Positions 63 through 11,433 of a stretch of 12,065 nucleotides of DNA are shown one piece after another. Position numbers and translations under genes: made by a program. This DNA comes from Desulfobacterales bacterium. GTDB taxonomy: Bacteria; Desulfobacterota; Desulfobacteria; Desulfobacterales; QNYZ01. Location: positions 1 to 12,065 of the forward strand of contig JAOZUU010000032.1 of the NCBI GenBank assembly GCA_029938515.1, given 5' to 3'. The notes beneath the pieces were generated by a model. It did not search any database. It was not told where the DNA came from and was given only the letters and a program-made list of their open reading frames with translations. Each line of letters starts with the position of its first letter. Position 1 is the stretch's first letter.

Positions 63-566
63 ATGAGCGTGGCACCACCTGATGACTTTGTTGAATCATG
101 TGAAGCGGATATCGATTACCTGCAATTGGATCATATTATCGAAGCGGAATTCAACAACGATGAGGAAAACCTGATTATGATCCTGCAGGCTATCCAAAGG
201 CAATACAACTATCTGCCCGGACCGACCCTGAGCTATCTGGCGGTCAAAATTGAGGTACCATTGAGTAAAATTTATGAAGTGGCTACCTTTTACAGCACTT
301 TTAGTCTCACCCCGCGGGGGCGAAACATCATTTCCATCTGTCTGGGTACCGCATGCCATGTTCGAGGTGCCGAACGGATAAAAGAACGGATTACGGACAA
401 CCTGCATATCGCTGCCGGAGAGACCAGCGAGGACATGCGATTTACACTGGAGTCAGTGCGCTGCATTGGATGCTGCAGCTTGGGTCCGGTGGTTAAAATA
501 AACGAAAACACTTACAGCCGCATTGCGCCGGATGAAGTCGCCAACATTCTGGAAACATATGAATAA
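63..566 (+). CDS. NuoE-like [2Fe-2S] thioredoxin-fold subunit
   Basis: This is the 24 kDa (NuoE/HoxE/HndA/BamG) type of subunit, 167 residues, which carries a [2Fe-2S] cluster beside the FMN/NADH subunit of NADH-oxidising complexes. The family ligand set is visible: C93-x4-C98 in CLGTACHV and C134-x3-C138 in CIGCCSLGP. A helical N-terminal part (about residues 20-85, with the typical LPGP...YEVATFYSTF region) precedes the thioredoxin-like domain. The ATG at 63 is chosen because AAGGAG at 49-54 lies 8 bases upstream; a TTG at 60 is also in frame but is one codon longer and less likely. The gene is followed after 22 bases by the NuoF-like gene, its expected partner. No signal peptide or membrane segment is seen, so it is cytoplasmic. 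Whether it belongs to a true complex I can be rejected from the context: no membrane subunits follow. Confidence 0.93.
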   Translation: MSVAPPDDFVESCEADIDYLQLDHIIEAEFNNDEENLIMILQAIQRQYNYLPGPTLSYLAVKIEVPLSKIYEVATFYSTFSLTPRGRNIISICLGTACHVRGAERIKERITDNLHIAAGETSEDMRFTLESVRCIGCCSLGPVVKINENTYSRIAPDEVANILETYE

Positions 567-588
567 CGGACAAAACGAGGCACAGACC

Positions 589-2490
589 ATGAAAATTCAG
601 TCTGTAAAGGACCTGGAACAAATCGGCCAGCGGTATCAAAAAAATCTGTACATACCAGAGGGCGTCAAGGTGAACGTGGGCATGGCTTCCTGTGGAATTG
701 CCGCTGGTGCCCAGGCGACTTACGATAAGGCCCTTGAAATTTATGGCGCCAATAATGGTATCAAGATTTGTCAGACCGGTTGTATCGGCTTTTGTGAAGA
801 TGAACCCCTGGTGGAAATCTTTGGGCGAGATAAACCGCGCGTGGTCTATCATCATATTACCGAAGATAAAATCGTTGACATTATTGAAGCCTACCAGACT
901 GGTGATTTTGTAAAAAAGCATATCCTGGGTCAAATGAAAGATCCCCGCAGCCTGCTCGACGACGATCTGGAGAATCCTCTGACCGGGATTGATCTCGTTG
1001 ATGGTATCCCTGTTTTCGAGGAGATTCCCTTCTATCGTAGCCAGGTCAAGGTTGCCATGAGAAATTGTGGCTACATCGACCCGGACAGTATTGAAGAGTA
1101 TATGGCTCGCAGGGGATATGCGGCCTTTTTAAGCGCGCTTCAAGAAATGAAACCTTCCGAGGTCATCGAGGTCGTCAAGGGATCGGGATTGCGTGGCCGT
1201 GGCGGCGGCGGGTTTCCCACCGGCATTAAATGGGCCACTTGTGCCAAAAGCGAGGGGCGCCGGGCGGTCATCTGTAATGCAGACGAGGGTGATCCGGGGG
1301 CTTACATGGATCGCAGCATTCTCGAAGGAGATCCTCATAGCGTGATCGAAGGCATGCTCATCGCGGCGGTCGCCATCGGTTCCAGCAATGGCTACATTTA
1401 TGTACGCAATGAATATCCTCTGGCGGTTAAACGGCTGGTTGGCGCTATCAGACAGGCTGAAAGTTACGGGCTGATAGGGGACAACATCGCCGGTACCGAT
1501 TTTAGCTTTCACATCAAGATATCCACTGGTGCGGGGGCCTTCGTGTGTGGCGAATCAACCGCCCTGATGGCATCGCTTGAGGGCCGGGTGGGTCGGCCGC
1601 AGGCCAAGTATGTCCATACCGTGGAGAAAGGATTTCGCAACAAACCTTCCAATCTGAATAATGTGGAGACCTACGCCAATGTTCCCGCCATTCTATTAAA
1701 AGGGGCTTCCTGGTTTGGACAAATGGGTACCGAGCACAGTAAAGGCACAAAGGTCTTCAGCCTGGTGGGTAAAATCAAGAATACGGGCCTTGTGGAAGTC
1801 CCTATGGGCATCTCCTTAAGAGACATCGTTTTCAATATCGGTGGTGGTGTTCCCGGGAAAAAGGTATTCAAGGCCGTGCAGACCGGCGGGCCTTCCGGTG
1901 GATGTATCCCGGAACGTTTCCTGGATTTGCCCGTGGATTATCAGAAATTGACCGAAGTGGGTTCCATCATGGGTTCCGGCGGCATGATCGTCATGGATCA
2001 GGATACCTGTATGGTGGACGTGGCCCGTTATTTCGTGGAGTTCCTTAAAGAAGAGTCCTGCGGCCAGTGCAACCCCTGCCGCGAGGGACTCAAGCAGATG
2101 CTCGAGATTCTAACGCGTATTTGCGAGGGAGACGGCAAAGAGGGGGATATCGAACTGCTGGAAGAGATGGGACCCATGATGCAGAAGTTTTCTTTGTGCG
2201 GTTTAGGGACCTCGGCGCCCAATCCGGTACTGACCACGATCTTATATTTTCGTGATGAGTACGAGGCACACATCAAAGACAAAAAATGCTCTTCGGGTGT
2301 CTGTAAGGCCTTGTATCACTATGAAATTGACGAAGAAGCCTGTACCGGCTGTCGGGTCTGTTCTCGCAAGTGTCCCCAGGATGCCATCACCGGCAAGAAG
2401 AAAGAGCCTCACCGCATCGATCAGCAATTGTGCATCAAATGTAGTATCTGTTATGATGTGTGCAAGTTCGGTGCAGTTGTCGTTAAATAA
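589..2490 (+). CDS. NuoF-like NADH/FMN subunit with N-terminal [2Fe-2S] and C-terminal 2x[4Fe-4S] domains
   Basis: This is the NADH-oxidising flavoprotein of a soluble NuoF/HydB/HndC/BamH type complex, 633 residues from the ATG at 589. Domains in order: a thioredoxin-like [2Fe-2S] domain at about 25-105 with four cysteines (C35, C61, C65, C69); the FMN-binding glycine-rich loop GLRGRGGGGFPTG (200-212); the NADH/FMN segment CNADEGDPGAYMDR (229-242); GAGAFVCGESTALMASLEGR (314-333); TGGPSGGCIPE (432-442); the N3-type [4Fe-4S] ligands C491, C494, C497 and C537; and a C-terminal bacterial ferredoxin domain with two CxxCxxCxxxC sets (C585-C595 and C615-C625). This extended form is typical of bifurcating hydrogenases and related complexes, not of respiratory complex I, whose NuoF is about 430-450 residues. 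The start at 589 is favoured by GAGG 8 bases upstream; ATG 559, which overlaps the nuoE-like stop, is in frame and would add ten residues. Confidence 0.94.
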   Translation: MKIQSVKDLEQIGQRYQKNLYIPEGVKVNVGMASCGIAAGAQATYDKALEIYGANNGIKICQTGCIGFCEDEPLVEIFGRDKPRVVYHHITEDKIVDIIEAYQTGDFVKKHILGQMKDPRSLLDDDLENPLTGIDLVDGIPVFEEIPFYRSQVKVAMRNCGYIDPDSIEEYMARRGYAAFLSALQEMKPSEVIEVVKGSGLRGRGGGGFPTGIKWATCAKSEGRRAVICNADEGDPGAYMDRSILEGDPHSVIEGMLIAAVAIGSSNGYIYVRNEYPLAVKRLVGAIRQAESYGLIGDNIAGTDFSFHIKISTGAGAFVCGESTALMASLEGRVGRPQAKYVHTVEKGFRNKPSNLNNVETYANVPAILLKGASWFGQMGTEHSKGTKVFSLVGKIKNTGLVEVPMGISLRDIVFNIGGGVPGKKVFKAVQTGGPSGGCIPERFLDLPVDYQKLTEVGSIMGSGGMIVMDQDTCMVDVARYFVEFLKEESCGQCNPCREGLKQMLEILTRICEGDGKEGDIELLEEMGPMMQKFSLCGLGTSAPNPVLTTILYFRDEYEAHIKDKKCSSGVCKALYHYEIDEEACTGCRVCSRKCPQDAITGKKKEPHRIDQQLCIKCSICYDVCKFGAVVVK

Positions 2491-2507
2491 CAAAGGGATA
2501 GATTTCC

Positions 2508-5500
2508 ATGGTTACGTTTAAACTTAACGGAAAAACGGTTCAGGGAGATGAAGGGCAGTATATCCTGCAGGTGGCCGAGAAATACGGCGTTGACATTCCG
2601 ACCCTGTGTCATCACAAGGCTTTGGAACCGGCCGGCATGTGCCGCCTGTGCACGGTGGAGCTATTTGATGGTCGACGAACGCGATTTGTCACTGCCTGCA
2701 ACTATCCCATCTGGGAGGGTATGGAAGTCAGCACCGATAGTGAGATGGTTCACGACGGACGGAAGCTGATTGTTGAGATGCTGTTGTCCCGGTGCCCGGA
2801 AGTGCCTCTGATACAGAATTTGGCGCAAGGGTATGGTATCTCGGAACCACGGTTTAAGAAAGAAGAAGACACCTGTATCCTCTGTGGCTTGTGTACCCGG
2901 GTCTGCGAGCGAATGGGGGCCAACGCCATCAGTCTGACCGGGCGAGGCGTCGAGATGAAGGTGGATACGCCTTTCGGCCTTAACACCGAGGCCTGCCTGG
3001 CTTGCGGTGCTTGTGCATCGGTTTGCCCCACCGGGCATATTACGTTGGAAAGGGTGAACCAGAAACATGCCCGGATTGCGGCTGGGCTGATTCCATCCGA
3101 GTATGACGTCGGCCTAAATGGCCGCAAAGCCGTTTACGTCCCCTATGCCCAGGCCGTTCCCAATACCCCGGTCATCGATCGTGATGTCTGCATGCATTTC
3201 AAGACCGGTGGATGTGAAATCTGCGCTGAATTCTGCGGCGTGGATGCCATCGATTACACCATGGAAGACGAGATCGTTGAACTGGATGTCGGTTCCATCA
3301 TCCTGGCACCCGGATTTGAGCCTTTCGATCCATCCGCTTTTGATTCTTATAACTACATTAACCATGCCAATGTGATTACATCCATGGAGATGGAACGGAT
3401 CCTTTCGGCTTCAGGCCCTTTCGAGGGGCACCTGATTCGGCCATCGGATCATAAGGAACCTAAAAAAATTGCCTGGTTTCAGTGTGTGGGGTCAAGGGAT
3501 GTCAATCGCTGTGATAATTCCTATTGTTCATCGGTGTGCTGCATGTACGCCATAAAAGAGGCGGTAATCACCAAAGAGCATGCCGGAGATGATGTGGATT
3601 GCGCCATCTTTTTCATGGACATGCGTACGCATGGCAAGGATTTTGAGCGGTTTTATGACAAAGCCCGTGAAAAAGAGGGGGTTCGGTTTATCCGCAGCCG
3701 TGTGCACACCATTGATTCCATACCCGGGTCGGACGATCTGTCGCTAAAATACGTGCTCGATGATGGCCAAATGGTCACCGAAACGTTTGATATGGTCGTG
3801 TTGTCCGTTGGGCTGCAAACACCGCCCGAAGTGGTGGAATTGGCCAAAAAGCTCGATATTGAATTAACCGCGGGCAATTTTTGCAAAACACCTACCTTCG
3901 ATCCTGTGGTGACCTCCCGGCCGGGCATCTTTGTCTGCGGTGCCTTCCAGGGGCCCAAAGATATTCCCCAGGCGGTCGTGGATTCAAGTGCCGCCGCTGC
4001 GGCCGCCGGTGAGATTCTGGTTTCCGCCCGGCACAGCAATACTAAAGAAAAGGAAGTGATTCCTGAAACCAATGTGATCAACGAACGTCCTCGCATCGGT
4101 GTGTTCGTCTGCCGTTGCGGTACGAATATTGCGGGTGTGGTGAATGTGCCCGCCGTGGCTGAATATGCCAAAAGTTTGCCCTATGTCACGTATACCACGG
4201 ACAACCTGTATTCATGCTCCCAGGATACCCAGGAAGTCATGACCGCGATCATTAAAAAAGAGAAACTGAACCGGGTCGTTGTGGCAGCCTGCACCCCCAA
4301 AACCCACGAACCGCTTTTTCAGGAAACCCTGGTCAATGCCGGATTGAACAAGTACCTGTTCGAGATGTGTAATATCCGCAACCAGGATTCCTGGGTCCAT
4401 AAAACCACCCCCGATCTGGCCACTGAAAAGGCCAAGGACCTGGTTCGGATGGCTGTTTCCAAAGTGGGCTTGATGGAACCGCTCAAAGAAACCGCGTTTG
4501 AAGTCAACCAGAATGCGTTGATCATTGGCGGGGGCGTGGCCGGTTTAACGGTGGCCAAAAGCCTGGGTCGGCAGGGATATCAAACCCATATCGTCGAAAA
4601 AGGCGATCGACTGGGCGGCCAGGCGGAAAAACTGTATCGGACGGCTGATGGCGAAACGGTCAAACCCAAGCTCCGGCAGCTGATCGATGAAATAACGAAA
4701 AATGACAATATCACTATCCACCTGGACACCGAATTGACCGACGTGGACGGGTTCGTGGGAAATTTCAAATCGACCCTCTCCAGAAACGGGTCCGGCAACG
4801 ACGATGAAACGGTCATCGAGCATGGCGTGGCGGTGATTGCCACCGGCGGCAAACCATATACCCCTTCCGAATATCATTACGGGGAAGATTCGCGTATCAT
4901 GACCAGCCTGATGCTGGATCAAAAAATCATGGAAGGTGATTCCGATCTGAAGAATTTGGATACGGCGGTTTTTATCCAGTGTGTCGGCTCCCGTCAGCCC
5001 GATCGTCCCTATTGCTCCCGGGTTTGCTGTACGCATTCCATTGACAGTGCCCTGACCCTTAAAGAGATGAACCCGGATATGAATATCTATATTCTATATC
5101 GGGATATTCGGACCTATGGCGAACGGGAATACTTGTATAAAGAAGCGCGTGATAAAGGTGTTATTTTTATTCGTTATTCACTGGATGCTAAACCGATAGT
5201 TGAAGTAGAAGATGGCCAACTGGATATTGAACTCACCGACCCCATTCTCGACCGGCCGGTGAAAATTTCTGCCGGGCTGCTCTGTCTGGCCACGGCGGTG
5301 ATCCCCAACCAGGACGAAAAATTGGCCCGTATGTTTAAAGTTTCTGTGAACGATGATGGATTTTTCGTTGAACGGCATGCCAAGCTCGGGCCTTCGGAAT
5401 TCGCCACGGACGGCGTGTATTTATGTGGCCTGGCTCATTACCCCAAGCCCGTCGATGAATCGGTGGTCCAGGGACGGGCGGTGGCGTCACGGGCAGTGAC

Positions 5501-5789
5501 GTTGTTGGCCAAGGATAAAATTTACACCAGCGGGCAGGTGGCTGAAACCGATCCGGCCATCTGTAGTGCCTGCAACGTATGTGTCTCCGTTTGTCCTTAC
5601 GGCGCACCATCATTAACCCCGGAAGATGCACGGTTTTTCCCGGGAACGGCCGAGATCAACCCGGTGCTTTGCAAAGGGTGCGGATTATGCGTGGCATCCT
5701 GCCGTTCCGGGGCGATTCATTTGAAAGGATTTGACAACGATCAGATTTTCGCCCAGATATTTTCGCTTGATCAAGCGGTTGGGTTGTAA
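2508..5789 (+). CDS. NuoG-type ferredoxin region fused to two HdrA-like units (1093 aa)
   Basis: This is a large iron-sulfur flavoprotein and the likely hub of the complex. Residues 1-75 are a NuoG-type [2Fe-2S] domain (C34, C45, C48, C64). Residues 118-180 hold two [4Fe-4S] motifs (C123-C126-C129-C133 and C163-C166-C169-C173). The His-ligated cluster motif of NuoG is not seen. From about 200 the protein is HdrA-like: GRKAVYVPYAQAVP (205-218), C228/C236/C239/C243, QCVGSR (325-330) with CCMYAI (344-349), and a GIFVCGAFQGPKDIP loop (473-487). This first unit has no N-terminal GxGxxG half. A second HdrA unit starts near 528: VCRCGTNIAGVV (534-545), VVAACTPKTHEPLF (591-604), the FAD motif LIIGGGVAGLTVAKSLGRQG (671-690) with RLGGQ, QCVGSR (824-829), CCTHSI (840-845), and a FAD-tail loop DGVYLCGLAHYPKP (968-981). 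The C-terminus is a 2x[4Fe-4S] ferredoxin (C1019-C1029 and C1055-C1065). HdrA proteins carry the bifurcating FAD in methanogen Hdr complexes; that this one does so is inferred. AAAGGGA at 2492-2498 lies 9 bases before the ATG. Confidence 0.92.
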   Translation: MVTFKLNGKTVQGDEGQYILQVAEKYGVDIPTLCHHKALEPAGMCRLCTVELFDGRRTRFVTACNYPIWEGMEVSTDSEMVHDGRKLIVEMLLSRCPEVPLIQNLAQGYGISEPRFKKEEDTCILCGLCTRVCERMGANAISLTGRGVEMKVDTPFGLNTEACLACGACASVCPTGHITLERVNQKHARIAAGLIPSEYDVGLNGRKAVYVPYAQAVPNTPVIDRDVCMHFKTGGCEICAEFCGVDAIDYTMEDEIVELDVGSIILAPGFEPFDPSAFDSYNYINHANVITSMEMERILSASGPFEGHLIRPSDHKEPKKIAWFQCVGSRDVNRCDNSYCSSVCCMYAIKEAVITKEHAGDDVDCAIFFMDMRTHGKDFERFYDKAREKEGVRFIRSRVHTIDSIPGSDDLSLKYVLDDGQMVTETFDMVVLSVGLQTPPEVVELAKKLDIELTAGNFCKTPTFDPVVTSRPGIFVCGAFQGPKDIPQAVVDSSAAAAAAGEILVSARHSNTKEKEVIPETNVINERPRIGVFVCRCGTNIAGVVNVPAVAEYAKSLPYVTYTTDNLYSCSQDTQEVMTAIIKKEKLNRVVVAACTPKTHEPLFQETLVNAGLNKYLFEMCNIRNQDSWVHKTTPDLATEKAKDLVRMAVSKVGLMEPLKETAFEVNQNALIIGGGVAGLTVAKSLGRQGYQTHIVEKGDRLGGQAEKLYRTADGETVKPKLRQLIDEITKNDNITIHLDTELTDVDGFVGNFKSTLSRNGSGNDDETVIEHGVAVIATGGKPYTPSEYHYGEDSRIMTSLMLDQKIMEGDSDLKNLDTAVFIQCVGSRQPDRPYCSRVCCTHSIDSALTLKEMNPDMNIYILYRDIRTYGEREYLYKEARDKGVIFIRYSLDAKPIVEVEDGQLDIELTDPILDRPVKISAGLLCLATAVIPNQDEKLARMFKVSVNDDGFFVERHAKLGPSEFATDGVYLCGLAHYPKPVDESVVQGRAVASRAVTLLAKDKIYTSGQVAETDPAICSACNVCVSVCPYGAPSLTPEDARFFPGTAEINPVLCKGCGLCVASCRSGAIHLKGFDNDQIFAQIFSLDQAVGL

Positions 5790-5803
5790 ATGATAGAAGA
5801 AAA

Positions 5804-5831
5804 GCTGAAAGCTGAAAACTGAAGGCTGAAA
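5804..5831 (+). repeat. Four tandem 7-base units (GCTGAAA type)
   Basis: Four consecutive heptamers, GCTGAAA GCTGAAA ACTGAAG GCTGAAA, fill 28 bases of the 100-base gap between the HdrA-like fusion gene and the MvhD-like gene. The rest of the gap is purine-rich and ends in the AAAGGAG ribosome binding site of the next gene (5872-5878). No terminator-like hairpin with a T-run is present, so transcription probably continues through the gap. The role of the heptamers is unknown; they may be simple slippage-derived sequence. Confidence 0.6.
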
Positions 5832-5889
5832 GAAAGAGACAAAGGGCTCACGGCTGAGTGTTGAACGATGTAAAGGAGAGAAATACCAT

Positions 5890-6345
5890 ATGTCTGAATG
5901 GAAACCGAAGATTGTTGCTTTTTTATGCAACTGGTGCAGTTACGGCGCGGCGGACCTGGCCGGTGTCAGCCGGATGGAGTATCCGCCTTATATCCGCGTG
6001 ATCCGGATTCCCTGCGCGGGAAGAATGGATCCCAAGTTTGCCTTGGCTGCTTTGCGGGAAGGGGCCGATGGGGTCTGGGTATCCGGGTGACATCCGGGCG
6101 AATGCCATTACCTGGAAGGTAATTATTTTGCTCGTCGGAAGTTCGCCCTTTTCAAGGAATTGATGGCCCATATGGGTGTCGAGTCCGAGCGCATTCACTT
6201 TTCGTGGGTCTCCTCGGCTGAGTCGACTAAATTTGTCCGGGTGGTCAATGAAGTGACCGAGGCGGTTCGAGCTTTGGGGCCGAACCGGAGGTTCGTCAAA
6301 TCCCATGGTTTGGATCGACAATCTTACGATGAAAAGGCGGCTTGA
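5890..6345 (+). CDS. mvhD: MvhD-like [2Fe-2S] subunit, selenoprotein (TGA at 6088-6090 read as Sec67)
   Basis: This is a 151-residue MvhD/FlxD/BamF-family protein, the small [2Fe-2S] subunit that passes electrons to HdrA. The reading frame is interrupted only by a TGA at codon 67. Family-typical sequence continues in the same frame on both sides: [13 protein letters not shown] (13-25), PCAGRMDP (41-48), [21 protein letters not shown] (58-78), [16 protein letters not shown] (81-96), and SSAESTKF (108-115) to a TGA at 6343-6345. Sec67 falls exactly where relatives have the first Cys of the G-C-H-P-G-D-C-H-Y motif. C13, C16, C42 and C72 are the other conserved cysteines. A SECIS-like hairpin starts 4 bases after the TGA (separate entry). 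AAAGGAG (5872-5878) gives a start at 5890. The gene is followed by the next start after one base. Automatic callers will split or truncate this gene at 6090. An in-frame nonsense mutation is the alternative but is much less likely given the hairpin and the perfectly placed codon. Confidence 0.93.
6091..6134 (+). promoter_or_regulatory. Bacterial SECIS element for Sec67 of the MvhD-like gene
   Basis: The 44 bases after the TGA fold into a two-part stem. The apical stem is 7 perfect base pairs, ATTACCT (6107-6113) with AGGTAAT (6117-6123), closed by a GGA triloop (6114-6116). An internal loop (6103-6106 against 6124-6126) separates it from a lower stem pairing 6095-6102 with 6127-6134 (8 pairs including two G-T wobbles). 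The loop begins 24 bases after the TGA and has G at its first two positions. Known bacterial SECIS elements place a small apical loop with an early G roughly 16-37 bases downstream of UGA, where SelB binds. Pairing was worked out by hand; no folding energy was computed. Confidence 0.82.
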
Positions 6346-6346
6346 T

Positions 6347-7291
6347 ATGATCGGCTATATCGATAAAATAAAACAGATATCAAAACAGATACTTGAGGAC
6401 TGCAAAGTTGACATGGTCATCGGATTCCGCCGGGGGACCGTGCCGATGATGAACGAACCCTGTGTGGCCAAAACCGAGGATGATGTAGATCAATTTGTCT
6501 GGGACGGCCATTGCGGTATCAACCTGGCTAATTACCTGATGGGTCGTAAGGAAAAGATCGGGATTGTGGCCAAGGGCTGTGACACACGGAACATTGTGAC
6601 CCACATCATTGAAAACAAAATTGATCGCGACCAGCTTTACATTATCGGGGTTCCCTGCAAGGGGATGATCGATCGTCGGCAGGTAAACAACCGCTTTGAA
6701 GGAGTTCGCGAGGTAATCGACCAAGGTGATACAGTGAAAATCATAGGAGCGGATTTTGAGGAAAAGCTGGATAAAACAGACCTGCTCCAGAGCAATTGTG
6801 CTACTTGCACTCATCCCAACCCGGTGATTCATGACGAGCTGGTGGGTGACCCGGTGGAGGTGCCGACGGATATCGACCAGTGGGCAGATGTGAGAAAGAT
6901 CGAAGCCATGTCGACTGAAGATAAGTGGGGCTATTTCGACGATTTGCTTAAGGAATGCATCCGTTGCTATGCCTGCCGCAATGCCTGTCCATTGTGTTAC
7001 TGCCCCACCTGTTTCGTGGATGAATCCACGCCCCAGTGGGTTGGGAAAAGTCAGGACCCCATCGATGTGCGAACATTTCACTTCCTGCGGGCGTTTCATT
7101 GCGCCGGCCGGTGCACCGACTGCGGGGCCTGCGAACGGGCCTGTCCGGTGGGAATCAATATGCGGGTATTTACCCAAAAGCTGGAAAAAGACTGCTACGA
7201 TCTATACGGATGGGAAGCCGGGCTGACTACGGATGTCCGGCCGCCGCTGGATACCTATCGGGCCGATGATCCGGAGGAGTTTATAAAATGA
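6347..7291 (+). CDS. FrhB/FdhB-like (FlxC-type) iron-sulfur protein with C-terminal 4Fe-4S clusters
   Basis: The protein is 314 residues. The N-terminal two thirds resemble the coenzyme F420 hydrogenase/dehydrogenase beta-subunit C-terminal fold: IGFRRG (25-30), AKGCDTRNIVTHI (75-87), IGVPCKGM (100-107), and CATC (151-154). The C-terminal part has a dense cysteine cluster C204-x2-C207-x2-C210-x3-C214 with extra C217, C219 and C222, then C252 and C256-x2-C259-x2-C262-x3-C266-P, which together can hold at least two [4Fe-4S] clusters. Proteins of this kind sit between MvhD-like and AsrA-like subunits in Flx-type clusters, where they probably relay electrons; binding of F420 is not implied. The start at 6347 follows the mvhD stop by one base, with AAGGCGG just upstream. 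An in-frame start at 6305 would overlap mvhD heavily and is rejected. The stop overlaps the next start (ATGA). Confidence 0.88.
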   Translation: MIGYIDKIKQISKQILEDCKVDMVIGFRRGTVPMMNEPCVAKTEDDVDQFVWDGHCGINLANYLMGRKEKIGIVAKGCDTRNIVTHIIENKIDRDQLYIIGVPCKGMIDRRQVNNRFEGVREVIDQGDTVKIIGADFEEKLDKTDLLQSNCATCTHPNPVIHDELVGDPVEVPTDIDQWADVRKIEAMSTEDKWGYFDDLLKECIRCYACRNACPLCYCPTCFVDESTPQWVGKSQDPIDVRTFHFLRAFHCAGRCTDCGACERACPVGINMRVFTQKLEKDCYDLYGWEAGLTTDVRPPLDTYRADDPEEFIK

Positions 7292-8355
7292 AGATCATCA
7301 ACATCAACAAAGCCGACTGGAACACCGGGTTGAAAAAAACCGCCGATGGGTATCGGCTGATCGGCCCGGTGATGGATCAGGGGTTTTATCTTTTTAAACC
7401 CCTTGAGTCCGGAAAAGTACCCGACATGGGGTTTACCAATACCCGCTTGTCGGCCAAGGGGATCATCTATCCCCAGTCTCAGACCCTGTTTAACTATTCA
7501 CTGGATCCTAACCGGGAAGACCATCATTTGCTGACCGAACCGGAAGATGCGCATCAATTAACGGTGGTGATCGGCATCCGTCCATGCGATGCCGCCGCTT
7601 TTGTGCAGGTCAAACGCAACTTTGATGCCCCCGATTACCAGGACCCTTACTGGCTATCGGCCTATGAAAATACGGTGCTGGTGGGATTGGCCTGCGACCA
7701 GCCGGGATCGACCTGTTTTTGTACCACTGCCGGCGGTGGGCCATACCATGAAGATGCACTGGATGTCCTTTTAGTAGATGAAGATGACCAATACCTGGCC
7801 CGGGTCGTCAGCGAAAAGGGCGCGGCCTTCTTGGCAAAGGCCGGATGGACCGAAACGGCGGACAATGATCTGGTGATGAAAACCATTGCCACGCGTAAGG
7901 AGGCGGCCGAAAACCGGATAAGTTCCACCATCAAAACGAACAATTTGGCCGATGCCGAGACCATGGCCATTTATGATGCCCCTTTTTGGGATGATGTGGC
8001 CTTTGCCTGTATCAATTGCGGGACCTGTACCTACCTGTGCCCCACCTGCTGGTGTTTCGATATTCAGGATGAAACCCACGGCATGTCAGGTCAGAGAATG
8101 AGGAGCTGGGACAGTTGCATGTTTCCCTTGTTCACCCTGCACGGCTCCGGACATAATCCCAGAGGACAAAAGGTTCAACGGGTCCGCCAGCGGTTTATGC
8201 ATAAACTGAAGTACTATGTAGATAAATACGAAGCCGGAATTCAGTGTGTCGGTTGTGGCCGTTGCGTCGATCAATGCCCGGTCAATATTGATATCCGGAA
8301 AGTGTGCGAGTTGATGAATAACGCCGGGAAACAATCGGTCACCTGCGCCGCCTAA
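7288..8355 (+). CDS. AsrA-like (FlxB-type) 2x[4Fe-4S] electron-transfer subunit
   Basis: This 355-residue cytoplasmic protein is of the AsrA / sulfhydrogenase-beta (HydB) family. These proteins pass electrons between an AsrB-like flavoprotein and a catalytic or Hdr partner. Family features are GIRPCDAAAF (96-105) and ACDQPGSTCFCTTAGGGP (135-152) in the N-terminal domain, then a ferredoxin-like domain with C241-C244-C247-C251 followed by C254 and C256 (CPTCWCFDIQD), the linker RSWDSCMF (272-279), and C320-C323-C326-C330. The start overlaps the preceding stop by four bases, a sign of translational coupling, and the AsrB-like gene follows after 13 bases. No AsrC or other sulfite reductase gene is next to it, so a role in sulfite reduction as in Salmonella AsrABC is not supported. 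It matches the FlxB position in Flx-Hdr clusters by order and type. Confidence 0.9.
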   Translation: MKIININKADWNTGLKKTADGYRLIGPVMDQGFYLFKPLESGKVPDMGFTNTRLSAKGIIYPQSQTLFNYSLDPNREDHHLLTEPEDAHQLTVVIGIRPCDAAAFVQVKRNFDAPDYQDPYWLSAYENTVLVGLACDQPGSTCFCTTAGGGPYHEDALDVLLVDEDDQYLARVVSEKGAAFLAKAGWTETADNDLVMKTIATRKEAAENRISSTIKTNNLADAETMAIYDAPFWDDVAFACINCGTCTYLCPTCWCFDIQDETHGMSGQRMRSWDSCMFPLFTLHGSGHNPRGQKVQRVRQRFMHKLKYYVDKYEAGIQCVGCGRCVDQCPVNIDIRKVCELMNNAGKQSVTCAA

Positions 8356-8368
8356 GGAGAGAATCATC

Positions 8369-9208
8369 GTGGAGAACCCATATTTACCCTATCCGGTTCG
8401 GATTGATAACATCATCACCGAAACCGAGGATAAAAATTTAAAAACCTTTAAATTCGTTTTTCTAAATCCCGAAGACGAAGCTAAGTTCGATTACCATGCC
8501 GGCCAGTTCGCCGAACTTTCCATCGCGGGAAAAGGCGAAATTCCCATCGGCATTGCGTCGTCCCCCACCGAAAAAGGATTTGTCATGTTCACCGTGAACA
8601 AGGTGGGACTGGTTTCCTCTCACCTTCATGCCATGAAGGAAGGCGATATCATGGGCATTCGCGGCCCGTTGGGTAACTGGTTCCCGTGGGAAACGCTGAA
8701 AGGGAAAAATGTGGTGATTATCGGTGGCGGGTTCGCGTTTACCACCTTACGGGCATCGATTATTCATATGCTGGCCCATCGCGATCAATTCGGTGATATC
8801 ACGGTTGTTTATGGTGCCCGAACACCGGGGATGCTATTGTATAGGGAGGAATTGGCCCAGTGGGAAAAACGAGACGACATCGATATGCATATTACGGTGG
8901 ACAGCACTGACGATCCGGACTGGAAATACAATACCGGTTTTGTGCCGACCATCACCGAACAGAAGGCGCCACCGGGCGATGAAAATACGTATGCCATCAT
9001 TTGTGGCCCGCCGATAATGATCAAATTTACCCAGCCGGTACTGGATAAAAATGGGTATCATCCCGAAAATATGATCATGTCCCTGGAAAACCGGATGAAA
9101 TGCGGCATCGGCATGTGCGGGCGGTGCAATGTCGGACGTCATTTTGTCTGCAAAGATGGGCCGGTATTCACCCTGGGCCAGCTGAACCGGATGCCGAAGG
9201 AATATTAA
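8369..9208 (+). CDS. AsrB-like (FlxA-type) FAD/NAD(P)H oxidoreductase with [2Fe-2S]
   Basis: This 279-residue protein belongs to the ferredoxin-NADP reductase fold family of AsrB, sulfhydrogenase gamma (HydG) and dihydroorotate dehydrogenase PyrK. The FAD domain covers about 8-108 (GQFAELSI at 45-52, IPIGIASSP at 58-66, RGPLGNWF at 98-105). The NAD(P) domain has GGGFAFTTLR (119-128), VYGARTPG (147-154) and the CGPPIM motif (212-217). The PyrK-type [2Fe-2S] site is C245-x4-C250-x2-C253-x7-C261. The start is GTG at 8369 with AAGGAGA 8 bases upstream. It probably exchanges electrons between NAD(P)H and the AsrA-like protein. The nucleotide preference cannot be told from sequence by eye. This is the second pyridine-nucleotide site in the block, besides the NuoF-like protein. 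It is the last gene before the 133-base gap. Confidence 0.91.
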   Translation: MENPYLPYPVRIDNIITETEDKNLKTFKFVFLNPEDEAKFDYHAGQFAELSIAGKGEIPIGIASSPTEKGFVMFTVNKVGLVSSHLHAMKEGDIMGIRGPLGNWFPWETLKGKNVVIIGGGFAFTTLRASIIHMLAHRDQFGDITVVYGARTPGMLLYREELAQWEKRDDIDMHITVDSTDDPDWKYNTGFVPTITEQKAPPGDENTYAIICGPPIMIKFTQPVLDKNGYHPENMIMSLENRMKCGIGMCGRCNVGRHFVCKDGPVFTLGQLNRMPKEY

Positions 9209-9341: not shown

Positions 9342-9659
9342 ATGCCGGATGTAGAGTTTATGGGAAAGACGTTTAGCGTGGATGAAGATGGCTTCATTGA
9401 TGATTATTCCAACTGGTCCGAGGAGTGGGTCCAGCATGTCAAGGGGGAAGAGGGAATTGACGAACTGAACGACGAACACAAAAAGGTTATCCAGGTTTTG
9501 CAGGAGTACTATGAGAAGAACGGGATTGCTCCGATGGTACGGGTTTTATCAAAAGTAACCGGATTCAAGCTGAAACATATTTACGAGTTGTTTCCGTCCG
9601 GCCCGGGCAAAGGGGCCTGTAAAATGGCCGGCCTGCCAAAACCGACCGGGTGCGTATAG
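9342..9659 (+). CDS. dsrC: DsrC, sulfur-carrier partner of dissimilatory sulfite reductase
   Basis: DsrC carries sulfur as a trisulfide between its two C-terminal cysteines during sulfite reduction by DsrAB; the trisulfide is then reduced by a membrane or cytoplasmic electron donor. The 105-residue protein has the full family C-terminus: FPSGPGKGACKMAGLPKPTG followed by CV. C104 is penultimate and C93 lies ten residues before it, so both catalytic cysteines are present. This separates true DsrC from TusE-like and RspA-like homologues, which lack C93. The N-terminal region (VDEDGFIDDYSNWSEEWV, 13-30) and the helical part are also typical. Translation should be strong (AAGGAGGT, spacing 6). A terminator follows 28 bases after the stop. 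Its placement behind the Nuo/Hdr/Flx-like block suggests, but does not show, that the complex is a DsrC-linked redox partner. Confidence 0.95.
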   Translation: MPDVEFMGKTFSVDEDGFIDDYSNWSEEWVQHVKGEEGIDELNDEHKKVIQVLQEYYEKNGIAPMVRVLSKVTGFKLKHIYELFPSGPGKGACKMAGLPKPTGCV

Positions 9660-9663
9660 TCTG

Positions 9664-9677
9664 ACTGGACGACCAGT
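9664..9677 (+). other. Small perfect hairpin downstream of dsrC
   Basis: ACTGG (9664-9668) and CCAGT (9673-9677) form a 5-bp stem around an ACGA loop, four bases after the dsrC stop codon and ten bases before the terminator stem. It has no T-run of its own. It may protect the 3' end of the dsrC transcript or be chance. Confidence 0.3.
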
Positions 9678-9687
9678 GATTTGATTT

Positions 9688-9724
9688 AAAAAGCCCTGCG
9701 GCGTCAGCCGGGGGCTTTTTTTTT
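9688..9724 (+). terminator. Rho-independent terminator after dsrC
   Basis: AAAAAGCCC (9688-9696) pairs with GGGCTTTTT (9712-9720). Inside it, CGGC (9699-9702) pairs with GCCG (9707-9710) around a GTCA loop, with only a small bulge between the two stems. A run of nine T (9716-9724) follows directly. This closes the dsrC transcript and separates it from the yjbQ-like gene at 9746. The matching A-run upstream means it may also work on the other strand. Confidence 0.92.
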
Positions 9725-9745
9725 GTCAACCGGGAGCATGGCGAG

Positions 9746-10141
9746 ATGATATTGACCGTAAAAACCAGGGTGAAAACGGAATTTGTGGATATCACCAGCG
9801 AAGTTAACCGGTTGCTTGCATCAACCGGATCGGTGGTGGACGGGCTCTGTTTTCTTTATGTCCCCCATACCACGGCGGCCGTGACCATCAATGAAAGTGC
9901 TGACCCGAGTGTACGGAAGGACATTCTCAAGGTGCTAAACGACATTGTACCCTGGGAAGCCGGATACCGTCACCTTGAGGGCAACTCACCGGCGCATATA
10001 AAATCCACCCTGGTGGGTGCGTCCGAATGGATTGCGGTTGAAAATAACCGGCTGGTTCTCGGTACCTGGCAGGGGTTATTTTTTTGCGAGTTTGATGGAC
10101 CGCGCAACCGTAAGGTCCATGTCCGGGTTGTTCCGGGATAA
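9746..10141 (+). CDS. yjbQ: YjbQ/UPF0047 family protein
   Basis: This small cytoplasmic protein, 131 residues, has the usual length of the YjbQ (UPF0047) family. Family motifs are all present: VPHTTAAVTINESADPSV (39-56), YRHLEGNSPAHIKSTLVG (74-91) and GTWQGLFFCEFDGPR (106-120). The conserved H41, E50, H76, H84 and E115 are the likely metal or active-site residues. Some members have weak thiamine phosphate synthase activity when overproduced, but the physiological role of the family is not settled, so none is claimed here. The start ATG at 9746 follows GGGAG (9732-9736) and comes just 22 bases after the dsrC terminator, so a promoter would have to overlap the terminator region or transcription depends on read-through. 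AhbA follows after 9 bases. Confidence 0.92.
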   Translation: MILTVKTRVKTEFVDITSEVNRLLASTGSVVDGLCFLYVPHTTAAVTINESADPSVRKDILKVLNDIVPWEAGYRHLEGNSPAHIKSTLVGASEWIAVENNRLVLGTWQGLFFCEFDGPRNRKVHVRVVPG

Positions 10142-10150
10142 GGTAAAGCC

Positions 10151-10606
10151 ATGAATCAATTGAATGGCATTGATCGCGCGATCTTAAACCGGATTCAATC
10201 CGACTTTCCCTTGACCCGCCGTCCCTTTGCCACCATTGCCGCGGAACTCGGCCTGTCCGAGGAGCAGGTTATTCATTCCCTGATCCGCCTGAAAAAAGAG
10301 GGAATTATTCGCCGGATCGGCGGGAATTTTGTTCCTCATAAACTCGATCATGTCAGTACCCTTTGCGCCGCCAAAGTGCCCGGGGACCGGATCGATTCGT
10401 TTGCGGCGGTGGTTAATCGTTATCCCGGGGTCACGCATAATTACCAGCGCGACAACGAGTATAATATCTGGTTTACTTTCATCGCCCCTTCGATGGCGGA
10501 GATTGTCGAAAATCTCATAGAAATTTCTCGGGAAACCGGTGTCACCGATATTCTCAACCTGCCAGCCACGCGTGTATTCAAGATCAAGGCCGAATTTGAG
10601 GTGTGA
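10151..10606 (+). CDS. ahbA: AhbA, siroheme decarboxylase alpha subunit (Lrp/AsnC-like fold)
   Basis: AhbA with AhbB removes two acetate carboxyls from siroheme to give 12,18-didecarboxysiroheme, the first step of the alternative heme route used by sulfate reducers and archaea. The 151-residue protein has an N-terminal winged-helix half (IDRAILNRIQSDFPLTRRPF at 7-26, then KKEGIIRRIGGNF at 48-60) and a ferredoxin-like half with VSTLCAAKVP (68-77), YPGVTHNYQRDNEYNIWFT (91-109) and DILNLPATRVFKIK (133-146). The IRRIGG, THNY and LNLPATR motifs fit the alpha subunit; AhbB instead has an RFGA-type motif and a WPYNL-type motif. Automatic annotation often labels such proteins Lrp/AsnC regulators, but siroheme decarboxylase is the better call. 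AAGGTAA overlaps the yjbQ stop and serves as ribosome binding site. No ahbB is seen in the window. Confidence 0.82.
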   Translation: MNQLNGIDRAILNRIQSDFPLTRRPFATIAAELGLSEEQVIHSLIRLKKEGIIRRIGGNFVPHKLDHVSTLCAAKVPGDRIDSFAAVVNRYPGVTHNYQRDNEYNIWFTFIAPSMAEIVENLIEISRETGVTDILNLPATRVFKIKAEFEV

Positions 10607-10614
10607 TAAAGGAC

Positions 10615-11433
10615 ATGAAAGACATCCGTATTGCCGTGGCGATTGTCCCTTGTCCGGTTGGTGAGATTGAAGAAAATCTTGACCGGATGAGCAGGTGGGT
10701 CGATCAGGCCCGTCGGGAGAGAGCAGCGCTTATCTGTTTTCCGGAATTGAATATCACCGGTTATACCACCCAGCCTGAAATCCGTCGGGTGGCGCGACCG
10801 ATATCGGGAGCCATTCAAAATCGCCTCGTCGACATGGCACAGGCCGCAAAGATAGTCATCCTGGCGGGGCTGGCGGAGGTCGGCTCGGACGAGTGCGTTT
10901 ATGCCACTCACCTGGTGATTACCCCCGAAGGCGAGATTCATCGTTACCGGAAGCTGCACCTTGCCCCCCCTGAACAGGCCGAACTGACTCACGGTGACCA
11001 GGTCCCTATTTTTGAAGCGGCCGGCATCAAGTTTGGAATCCAGCTTTGTTATGATGCCCATTTTCCTGAGCTGTCCACGCGGATGGCCCTGTCCGGCGCC
11101 GAAGTGATTTTTATTCCCCATGCCTCTCCCCGGGTGACACCTGAAGAAAAATTTGCCTCATGGATGCGTCATCTGCCCGCCCGGGCCTATGACAATAGTG
11201 TGTACATCGTGGCCTGTAACCCCTGTGGAGAAAACGGGTTCGGGCTATCTTTCGCCGGCCTGGGCATGGCCATTGGGCCGTCCGGTAATGTGATTGAGCG
11301 CTATTTGGATGGTCAGGAGGGGATGCTGCGGGTCGATTTGAAAGCAGCAGACTTGGCCGCTGTGCGGGCGCATCGGATGCGGTATTTTCTGCCGAACCGT
11401 CGACCGGAGATTTACCGGCTCGAAAACCAATAG
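10615..11433 (+). CDS. Nitrilase-superfamily (C-N hydrolase) amidohydrolase
   Basis: This is a cytoplasmic carbon-nitrogen hydrolase of 272 residues, the usual length. The Glu-Lys-Cys catalytic triad is visible: E44 in CFPELNITGYT (41-51), K113 in YRKLHL (111-116) and C145 in QLCYDAHFPELS (143-154). Later family segments are IFIPHASP (165-172) and ARAYDNSVYIVACNPCG (189-205). The substrate cannot be told; it could act on an N-carbamoyl compound, an omega-amide or a nitrile. The start at 10615 (MKDIRIAVAI) is preferred because GAGGTG (10598-10603) sits 11 bases upstream. A GTG at 10603 is in frame and would add four residues while overlapping the ahbA stop. The gene is coupled to yjbQ and ahbA, yet no direct pathway link is evident. 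Confidence 0.88.
   Translation: MKDIRIAVAIVPCPVGEIEENLDRMSRWVDQARRERAALICFPELNITGYTTQPEIRRVARPISGAIQNRLVDMAQAAKIVILAGLAEVGSDECVYATHLVITPEGEIHRYRKLHLAPPEQAELTHGDQVPIFEAAGIKFGIQLCYDAHFPELSTRMALSGAEVIFIPHASPRVTPEEKFASWMRHLPARAYDNSVYIVACNPCGENGFGLSFAGLGMAIGPSGNVIERYLDGQEGMLRVDLKAADLAAVRAHRMRYFLPNRRPEIYRLENQ

Follow-up and report, generated by a model that had tools for sequence, protein, structure and literature searches.

A seven-gene cluster beside dsrC that looks like a common variant of Flx-HdrA with a Bfu-type front module and no HdrB or HdrC

Stn, an enzyme made of NuoE, NuoF, and a NuoG-GltD fusion, is a characterized NADPH/NAD+/ferredoxin transhydrogenase, according to the accessible part of PMC10482914. 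A Bam-Bfu system with an HdrA module is described in PMC9304861, although a NuoG-HdrA fusion is not among the arrangements covered in the portion consulted, and nuoEFG-mvhD-hdrA units were noted in 2013 in Desulfotignum, a member of Desulfobacterota (PMC4046663, in excerpt). Here, we analyze seven plus-strand genes at positions 63-9208 of a contig from a Desulfobacterales bacterium (C351; 12,065 bases, the whole of which we call the window) in an assembly of 3.23 Mb that is 71.7% complete (G000). The genes encode NuoE, a HydB-type NuoF, a NuoG-HdrA fusion, MvhD, and FrhB-like, AsrA-like, and AsrB-like proteins, and from their sequences the cluster looks like a common variant of Flx-HdrA that lacks HdrB and HdrC (HdrBC) and has a Bfu front module. 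A NuoG-HdrA fusion with a Flx-type arm beside dsrC, or repeated exchange of the front module at such a locus, is not described in the open-licence literature that we found.

Pfam and NCBIfam searches of ten window proteins, with open reading frame (ORF) calls for gene limits, placed all seven genes where a preliminary description, made from the sequence alone, had put them. The first is a NuoE-like [2Fe-2S] subunit of the HydC/BfuC/StnA type (63..566; PF01257, E = 2.2e-48; ORF call). It is followed by a NuoF-like subunit of the HydB/BfuB/StnB type (559..2490; PF01512, PF10589, Fer4, and PDB alignments), the frame of which is open from 523 with a likely start at 559 or 589. NuoF has a Trx-like 2Fe-2S N-terminal domain, an FMN/NADH domain, and C-terminal ligands for two [4Fe-4S] clusters; it aligned, cysteine motifs included, to 9bov_B and 8oh5_B over its whole length (in two stretches each) and to 7t2r_B from residue 58 (best E = 2.6e-214), and it bears the cluster ligands of bifurcating HydB/StnB. 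NuoE and NuoF thus have the parts of a Bfu/HydBC core. The third gene (2508..5789) encodes a fusion of 1093 residues, as judged by Pfam, NCBIfam, alignments to 5odc_A in three stretches, and alignment with two other large-subunit forms. A NuoG N-terminal domain (residues 1 to ~157) precedes the later part of an HdrA (~157-518) and a second HdrA with a FAD motif (~526-1093). The NuoG-HdrA-HdrA fusion of the preliminary description is therefore real as a fusion, but its first HdrA is a later part only, with query residues 195-452 aligning to residues 260-511 of 5odc_A. In the alignment of large-subunit forms, NuoG occupies the position that the FAD Rossmann segment of the first HdrA has in other loci. 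An AlphaFold model of the fusion had a pLDDT of 56.6, too low for use. The arrangement is not a matter of chance, because of 7995 scored protein matches, the 120 listed as best span the entire fusion at 73-91% identity, and artefact or misassembly is ruled out by recurrence of the gene order on many contigs.

The fourth gene encodes an MvhD/FlpD (FlxD-like) selenoprotein (5890..6345; PF02662, E = 3.7e-53) with an in-frame TGA at 6088-6090 in the motif GUHPGECHY. At this site, 60 of 79 deduplicated loci have TGA and 8 encode Cys (the motif was not found in the other 11), and we therefore read the TGA as selenocysteine, at a position where some relatives have Cys. A possible bacterial selenocysteine insertion sequence hairpin lies at the TGA (6085..6150, plus strand; minimum free energy -26.3 kcal/mol, z = -3.06), the window had no Rfam match at the gathering score, and SelB was matched only below threshold in this 71.7%-complete assembly. 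Next comes a FrhB/FdhB-like iron-sulfur subunit (6347..7291), which by sequence and fold match to FdhB/FrhB is an FdhB-type adaptor; its frame is open from 6305, and the Met conserved as start among relatives is at 6347. The last two genes encode an AsrA/SHI-beta-like iron-sulfur subunit (7288..8355; PF17179, E = 3.7e-33; 9nez_B, E = 8.9e-36) and an AsrB/SHI-gamma-like FAD-NAD(P)H subunit (8369..9208; PF00175, PF10418, PF00970; 9nez_C, E = 2.4e-55), which match the NAD(P)H arm of Pyrococcus furiosus SHI. By homology, sites for NADH, ferredoxin, and NAD(P)H are present in the cluster, as the preliminary description held. The span that it gave is one gene short, because dsrC (9342..9659, plus strand; PF04358, E = 2.5e-35) begins 133 bp downstream of asrB.

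Scanning with the FrhB-like protein as query identified 63 loci (FrhB-scan loci), mostly Desulfobacterales or Desulfobacteraceae by title, with some labeled only Proteobacteria, Deltaproteobacteria, or Thermodesulfobacteriota; stretches from further relatives were added as a second set (L036 of this set and FrhB-scan locus L069 are one contig). In a wider phylum sample, 188 of 297 genomes had a FrhB-type relative at E <= 1e-15, distant ones counted in, and 20 stretches were hand-chosen from the matches. In four of these stretches (L192, L193, L196, and L197), HdrA, MvhD, FrhB, AsrA, and AsrB are preceded by a CCG gene of HdrB-like type and an HdrC-like stretch of ferredoxin type, a make-up that we take to be Flx-Hdr, and their FrhB-like proteins have 34-36% identity to that of the window with the invariant cysteines in common. 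Because both gene order and FrhB homology match these HdrB-bearing loci, which served for the comparison in place of D. vulgaris sequences, the right half of the window cluster is a Flx-type arm, and HdrA, MvhD/FlxD, and FlxABC-type subunits stand together in one cluster. The order HdrA-MvhD-FrhB-AsrA-AsrB-DsrC-(YjbQ)-AhbA-Nit is common to the FrhB-scan loci and the second set, many of which are cut by contig ends; YjbQ is our presumed name for the neighbor after DsrC. Promoter scans (15 versus 12.1 expected) and terminator scans (15 versus 13.7 expected) were near chance, and operon limits are therefore set by gene order only. The host is a probable sulfate reducer. DsrA scored above cut-off in this assembly and in 52 of the 58 sampled genomes in total, and most sampled lineages are therefore dissimilatory sulfate or sulfite reducers.

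The front end of the large subunit has three forms. In the window form, NuoEF is encoded upstream and NuoG replaces the FAD Rossmann segment of the first HdrA. Plain HdrA retains this segment and has an in-frame TGA (the U of LDKTFPTNDCAMU), and a third form retains both segment and TGA with a GltD/NfnL-like domain inserted behind (L062 by Pfam). This TGA, present in 32 of 33 loci of the latter two forms (duplicates counted; the remaining locus is cut by a contig end), is a second selenocysteine site that is missing from the NuoG-type fusion. We built a quick tree of concatenated FrhB-AsrA-AsrB arms, in which 79 rows (Nuo 21, plain 29, GltD 11, HdrBC 4, unclear 14; L092, L195, and the four HdrBC rows labeled by hand) remained from 98 loci after duplicates and incomplete rows were dropped, and L186, L191, L196, and L197 had long branches. 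The Nuo label required 14 changes on this tree, at least 11 of them forced by well-supported branches, versus a mean of 18.7 for shuffled labels (0 of 500 shuffles as low). For a comparison on 60 rows, the 14 unclear rows, the 4 HdrBC rows, and one Nuo row were dropped; a tree of the HdrA body then required 12 changes for the three labels (7 for Nuo, 5 or more of them forced; no shuffle in 200 did as well) and the arm tree 23 (matched or bettered by 25 shuffles in 200). The front module therefore tracks the HdrA body more closely than it does the arm, and it has been swapped repeatedly against the background of each: NuoEF-NuoG, a GltD-like module, and plain Sec-HdrA have replaced one another at this locus. 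The front module is the main difference between L036 and L071, for example, and between L100 and L072. Gain and loss of front modules are indistinguishable here, and loss from multi-copy ancestors is an alternative to transfer; HdrA sets are multiple in L194 (two tandem HdrA-MvhD-FrhB sets) and in L195 (a NuoG-HdrA gene and then a plain HdrA gene in one cluster). At L044 (genome G021, 280-12505), the NuoE-NuoF-NuoG/HdrA-MvhD-FdhB-like set occurs with a molybdopterin (formate dehydrogenase-like) enzyme replacing AsrAB; judged by this locus, the far arm is exchangeable as well.

The cluster encodes no HdrB and no catalytic enzyme, as the preliminary description stated, and PF02754 (CCG) had no match on the contig versus 24 elsewhere in the assembly. 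Because the contig starts only 62 bases 5' of nuoE and the assembly is incomplete, absence of an upstream hdrB cannot be shown here and was tested in relatives instead, by a regular-expression screen for CCG ORFs (Pfam check of three matches, L059, L105, and L046). The preliminary description had named upstream hdrB among the findings that would speak against it, and none of the 10 NuoG-type FrhB-scan loci with at least 1.4 kb of upstream sequence had a CCG ORF on the same strand within 3 kb (HdrC was not searched by its own model). Among the other FrhB-scan loci with such room, 4 of 18 plain-HdrA and 0 of 7 GltD-type loci had one; corresponding counts were 6/9 plain, 0/3 GltD, and 4/4 HdrBC-type in the phylum sample and 1/5 for NuoG-type loci of the second set, the one being L044. 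These counts omit loci with too little upstream sequence, including L181 (GltD) and L182 (cut), which carry a CCG ORF downstream of AsrB, and CCG ORFs lie upstream on the opposite strand at L060 (1.9 kb away) and L055. At four plain-HdrA loci with DsrC (L059, L105, L106, and L114), a CCG gene lies ~300 bp upstream of HdrA (by motif, and by Pfam for L059 and L105), preceded in L059 and L105 by a membrane/ferredoxin gene that we presume to be of the TmcC or DsrM type. HdrB absence is consistent in the type of the window, yet the wider family uses HdrB-like proteins; the gene-order comparison that had been proposed thus found the order again in relatives, with HdrB-like genes beside some of other make-up. 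Loss of hdrBC off the contig start is made unlikely for the window strain by these relatives. No BamB/BamC-type enzyme was found among the ten window proteins scanned; the upstream ORFs of relatives were covered by a sample that was scanned or read.

We tentatively favor, at a little under an even chance, the explanation that the seven proteins form one soluble Flx-HdrA complex without HdrB/HdrC that links NADH and ferredoxin to NAD(P)H, much as Stn or Nfn does, with DsrC as a likely further partner. NuoE and NuoF would form a Bfu/HydBC-type core using NAD(H) and ferredoxin, and NuoG, joined to the HdrA chain where the FAD Rossmann domain of the first HdrA would otherwise be, would hand electrons to the remaining HdrA FAD. 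On the far side of HdrA, MvhD and then the FdhB-like adaptor would link it to an NAD(P)H:flavin arm that is made up of AsrA and AsrB and resembles the one in P. furiosus SHI. The proposed path would run from NuoEF through the NuoG clusters, the HdrA ferredoxin-type clusters, the FAD of the second HdrA, and the C-terminal HdrA clusters to the MvhD [2Fe-2S] cluster, and onward through the adaptor, AsrA, and the AsrB FAD to NAD(P). Exchange of NADH and ferredoxin with NAD(P)H could then proceed by bifurcation or confurcation, and by analogy with Stn (PMC10482914, accessible part) the net reaction might be that of NADH and reduced ferredoxin with NADP+, or the reverse. The NADH/ferredoxin module would thereby take the role that HdrBC has in FlxABCD-HdrABC.

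Multiple observations support this explanation. First, the NuoF cysteines align to HydB/StnB chains, and Stn is an enzyme with the proposed type of activity. Second, NuoG replaces the HdrA FAD Rossmann segment, and the FrhB-like subunit is an FdhB-like adaptor by sequence and fold. Third, the HdrA-MvhD-FrhB-AsrA-AsrB order and FrhB homology are shared with HdrB-bearing phylum loci, AsrAB corresponds to the NAD(P)H arm of SHI, and the 10 NuoG-type FrhB-scan loci with enough upstream sequence have no same-strand CCG ORF within 3 kb. Fourth, a GltD/NfnL-like domain, again a pyridine-nucleotide module, sits in the same front region elsewhere. Finally, L044 joins the same front set to a molybdopterin enzyme, as expected of an exchangeable far arm.

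Other observations weigh against it. The assembly contains a strong NfnL candidate (C272, 602.6 bits), so the cluster would not be the sole transhydrogenase and no stand-in for Nfn is needed; a role as substitute for NfnAB is weakened accordingly. Plain-HdrA loci retain everything else without an NADH module (a CCG ORF within 1.5 kb is lacking in 22 and present in 10; 98 loci in all, duplicates counted), and the core function may therefore not need that module. L044, the only positive NuoG-type locus and one without AsrAB, has a CCG gene upstream, as do L045 and L046, two NuoG-type contigs cut off before a Flx-type arm could appear, and NuoG-HdrA can thus occur with HdrB-like genes. Moreover, a pure transhydrogenase fails to explain the adjacency of dsrC. 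In the most far-reaching reading, one NuoG-HdrA chain would couple two bifurcation sites, the NuoEF FMN/Fe-S core and the HdrA FAD, in series; with the Flx-type arm, NADH, ferredoxin, NAD(P)H, and DsrC would exchange electrons without HdrB; and the front end would be a socket for three kinds of pyridine-nucleotide or flavin module, swapped many times beside dsrC. We regard this larger picture as rather unlikely.

The adjacency of dsrC bears most directly on a different explanation, doubtful but the best of the alternatives, in which the main job of the cluster is to carry electrons from NAD(P)H, with or without ferredoxin, to oxidized DsrC or back without an HdrB subunit, and the front module alters only the extra coupled electron source. 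A same-strand dsrC lies downstream in 39 of 44 window and FrhB-scan loci that have 1.5 kb or more of sequence beyond AsrB, under all three front modules (Nuo 13/13, plain 16/17, GltD 6/7, unclear 4/7), versus 0 of 17 phylum-sample loci with comparable room, and CCG ORFs by motif are present in 12 of the 20 phylum stretches (that of L187 overlaps a longer opposite frame). DsrC was found in 54 of 58 sampled genomes, and in at least 29 of these 54, dsrC has an HdrA match among those listed no more than 9 kb away (3.5-4.1 kb in every case). This assembly has a single DsrC match. The window protein has the two C-terminal redox cysteines of dissimilatory DsrC (C-x10-C), as do 50 of 52 DsrC loci. The claim that the complex has no obvious terminal substrate was too strong, and this candidate thiol carrier next door had been overlooked. 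In addition, an interaction of DsrC with D. vulgaris FlxABCD-HdrABC has been reported (Ferreira 2023, as cited in the accessible parts of PMC10504309 and PMC10920352), and an HdrL-DsrC link has been hypothesized for Desulfurivibrio (PMC12142623, in excerpt). By contrast, the candidate partners of DsrC in the portion of PMC6470260 consulted are HdrB/HdrD-like CCG proteins, none of which the cluster encodes. Five of the 44 loci have no dsrC at that place (L055, L057, L064, L107, and L113), and across the AsrB-DsrC gap (133 bp here; median 179 bp, range 116-421, over 52 loci) co-transcription would be no more than a possibility. The neighborhood may also be positional, since in 9 of 30 DsrC loci (L118-L147) dsrC stands in a block with ahbA, yjbQ, or both although no AsrB precedes it (one of the nine is close to a contig end, and another has the opposite orientation). 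This block, often with a nitrilase gene as well, is conserved even without AsrB; the window copy spans 9342-11433.

It is quite improbable that the seven proteins recruit HdrB/HdrC from genes elsewhere in the genome, in which case the complex would be a FlxABCD-HdrABC of the ordinary kind except for a split operon and an extra NADH module. The CCG matches on other contigs of the assembly would supply candidates, and the four plain-HdrA loci with DsrC and a CCG gene just upstream also speak for it; however, the 10 NuoG-type and 7 GltD-type FrhB-scan loci with enough upstream sequence have no nearby same-strand CCG ORF, and the two HdrB-type genes examined (C259 and C22) adjoin other hdrA genes. 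Least credible of all is that two separate complexes, NuoEFG-HdrA-MvhD and FdhB-AsrAB, share the locus: front modules were swapped almost independently of the AsrAB arm, and an arm of this type serves another enzyme, SHI (and presumably also Asr), but the HdrA-MvhD-FrhB-AsrA-AsrB order is retained from distant loci to the window type, and mvhD ends at 6345 with the next gene starting at 6347.

The question addressed here is how electrons cycle between NADH, NADPH, ferredoxin, and DsrC in the cytoplasm of such sulfate reducers. A common cluster keeps the Flx-type arm, adjoins dsrC, has no subunit of the HdrB type, the presumed reductant of DsrC, and swaps its pyridine-nucleotide module, and this combination makes the question directly testable in few proteins. 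To call the cluster a new machine, a possibility that the preliminary description raised, goes too far, as the arm is shared with HdrB-bearing loci, NuoEF-NuoG is of the Bfu/Stn type, and nuoEFG-mvhD-hdrA units had been noted in 2013 (PMC4046663, in excerpt). From Fdh-HdrABC and Elp-Hdr of methanogens, the cluster differs in lacking HdrB and HdrC as well as a formate dehydrogenase. Compared with Bam class II benzoyl-CoA reductase, the BamF subunit of which we take to be MvhD-like, it has no BamB-type enzyme among the proteins scanned and has a FrhB-AsrA-AsrB arm. The two are alike in their NuoE/F/G-like parts and HdrA-type module, as far as the consulted portion of PMC9304861 describes the Bam system. 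The HdrL loci of Desulfobacterium autotrophicum HRM2 resemble the cluster in having a large HdrA-type protein with an NAD-binding site, then mvhD and dsr genes as printed, although HdrL is described there as a glutamate-synthase fusion and the fusion of the cluster is to NuoG (PMC2702500, accessible part). The dsrA, dsrB, and dsrC shown after HdrL1 and MvhD in Fig. 4 of that paper may be asrA-like, asrB-like, and true dsrC genes, as in GltD-type loci. StnABC and Bfu/HydABC share with the cluster a NuoE, a HydB-type NuoF, and a NuoG-fused third subunit (PMC10482914 and PMC9304861, in the parts consulted), but the third subunit bears HdrA here and GltD or hydrogenase there; the window has no GltD/NfnL-like NADPH domain fused to NuoG, and it is other loci of the family that have a GltD-like domain. 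Finally, FlxABCD-HdrABC is matched in HdrA, MvhD, FrhB-like, AsrA-like, and AsrB-like proteins, encoded in the same order as in HdrB-bearing phylum loci, and the cluster departs from it by having no HdrB-like gene, an added NuoEF-NuoG, two HdrA parts in the large subunit, and dsrC alongside.

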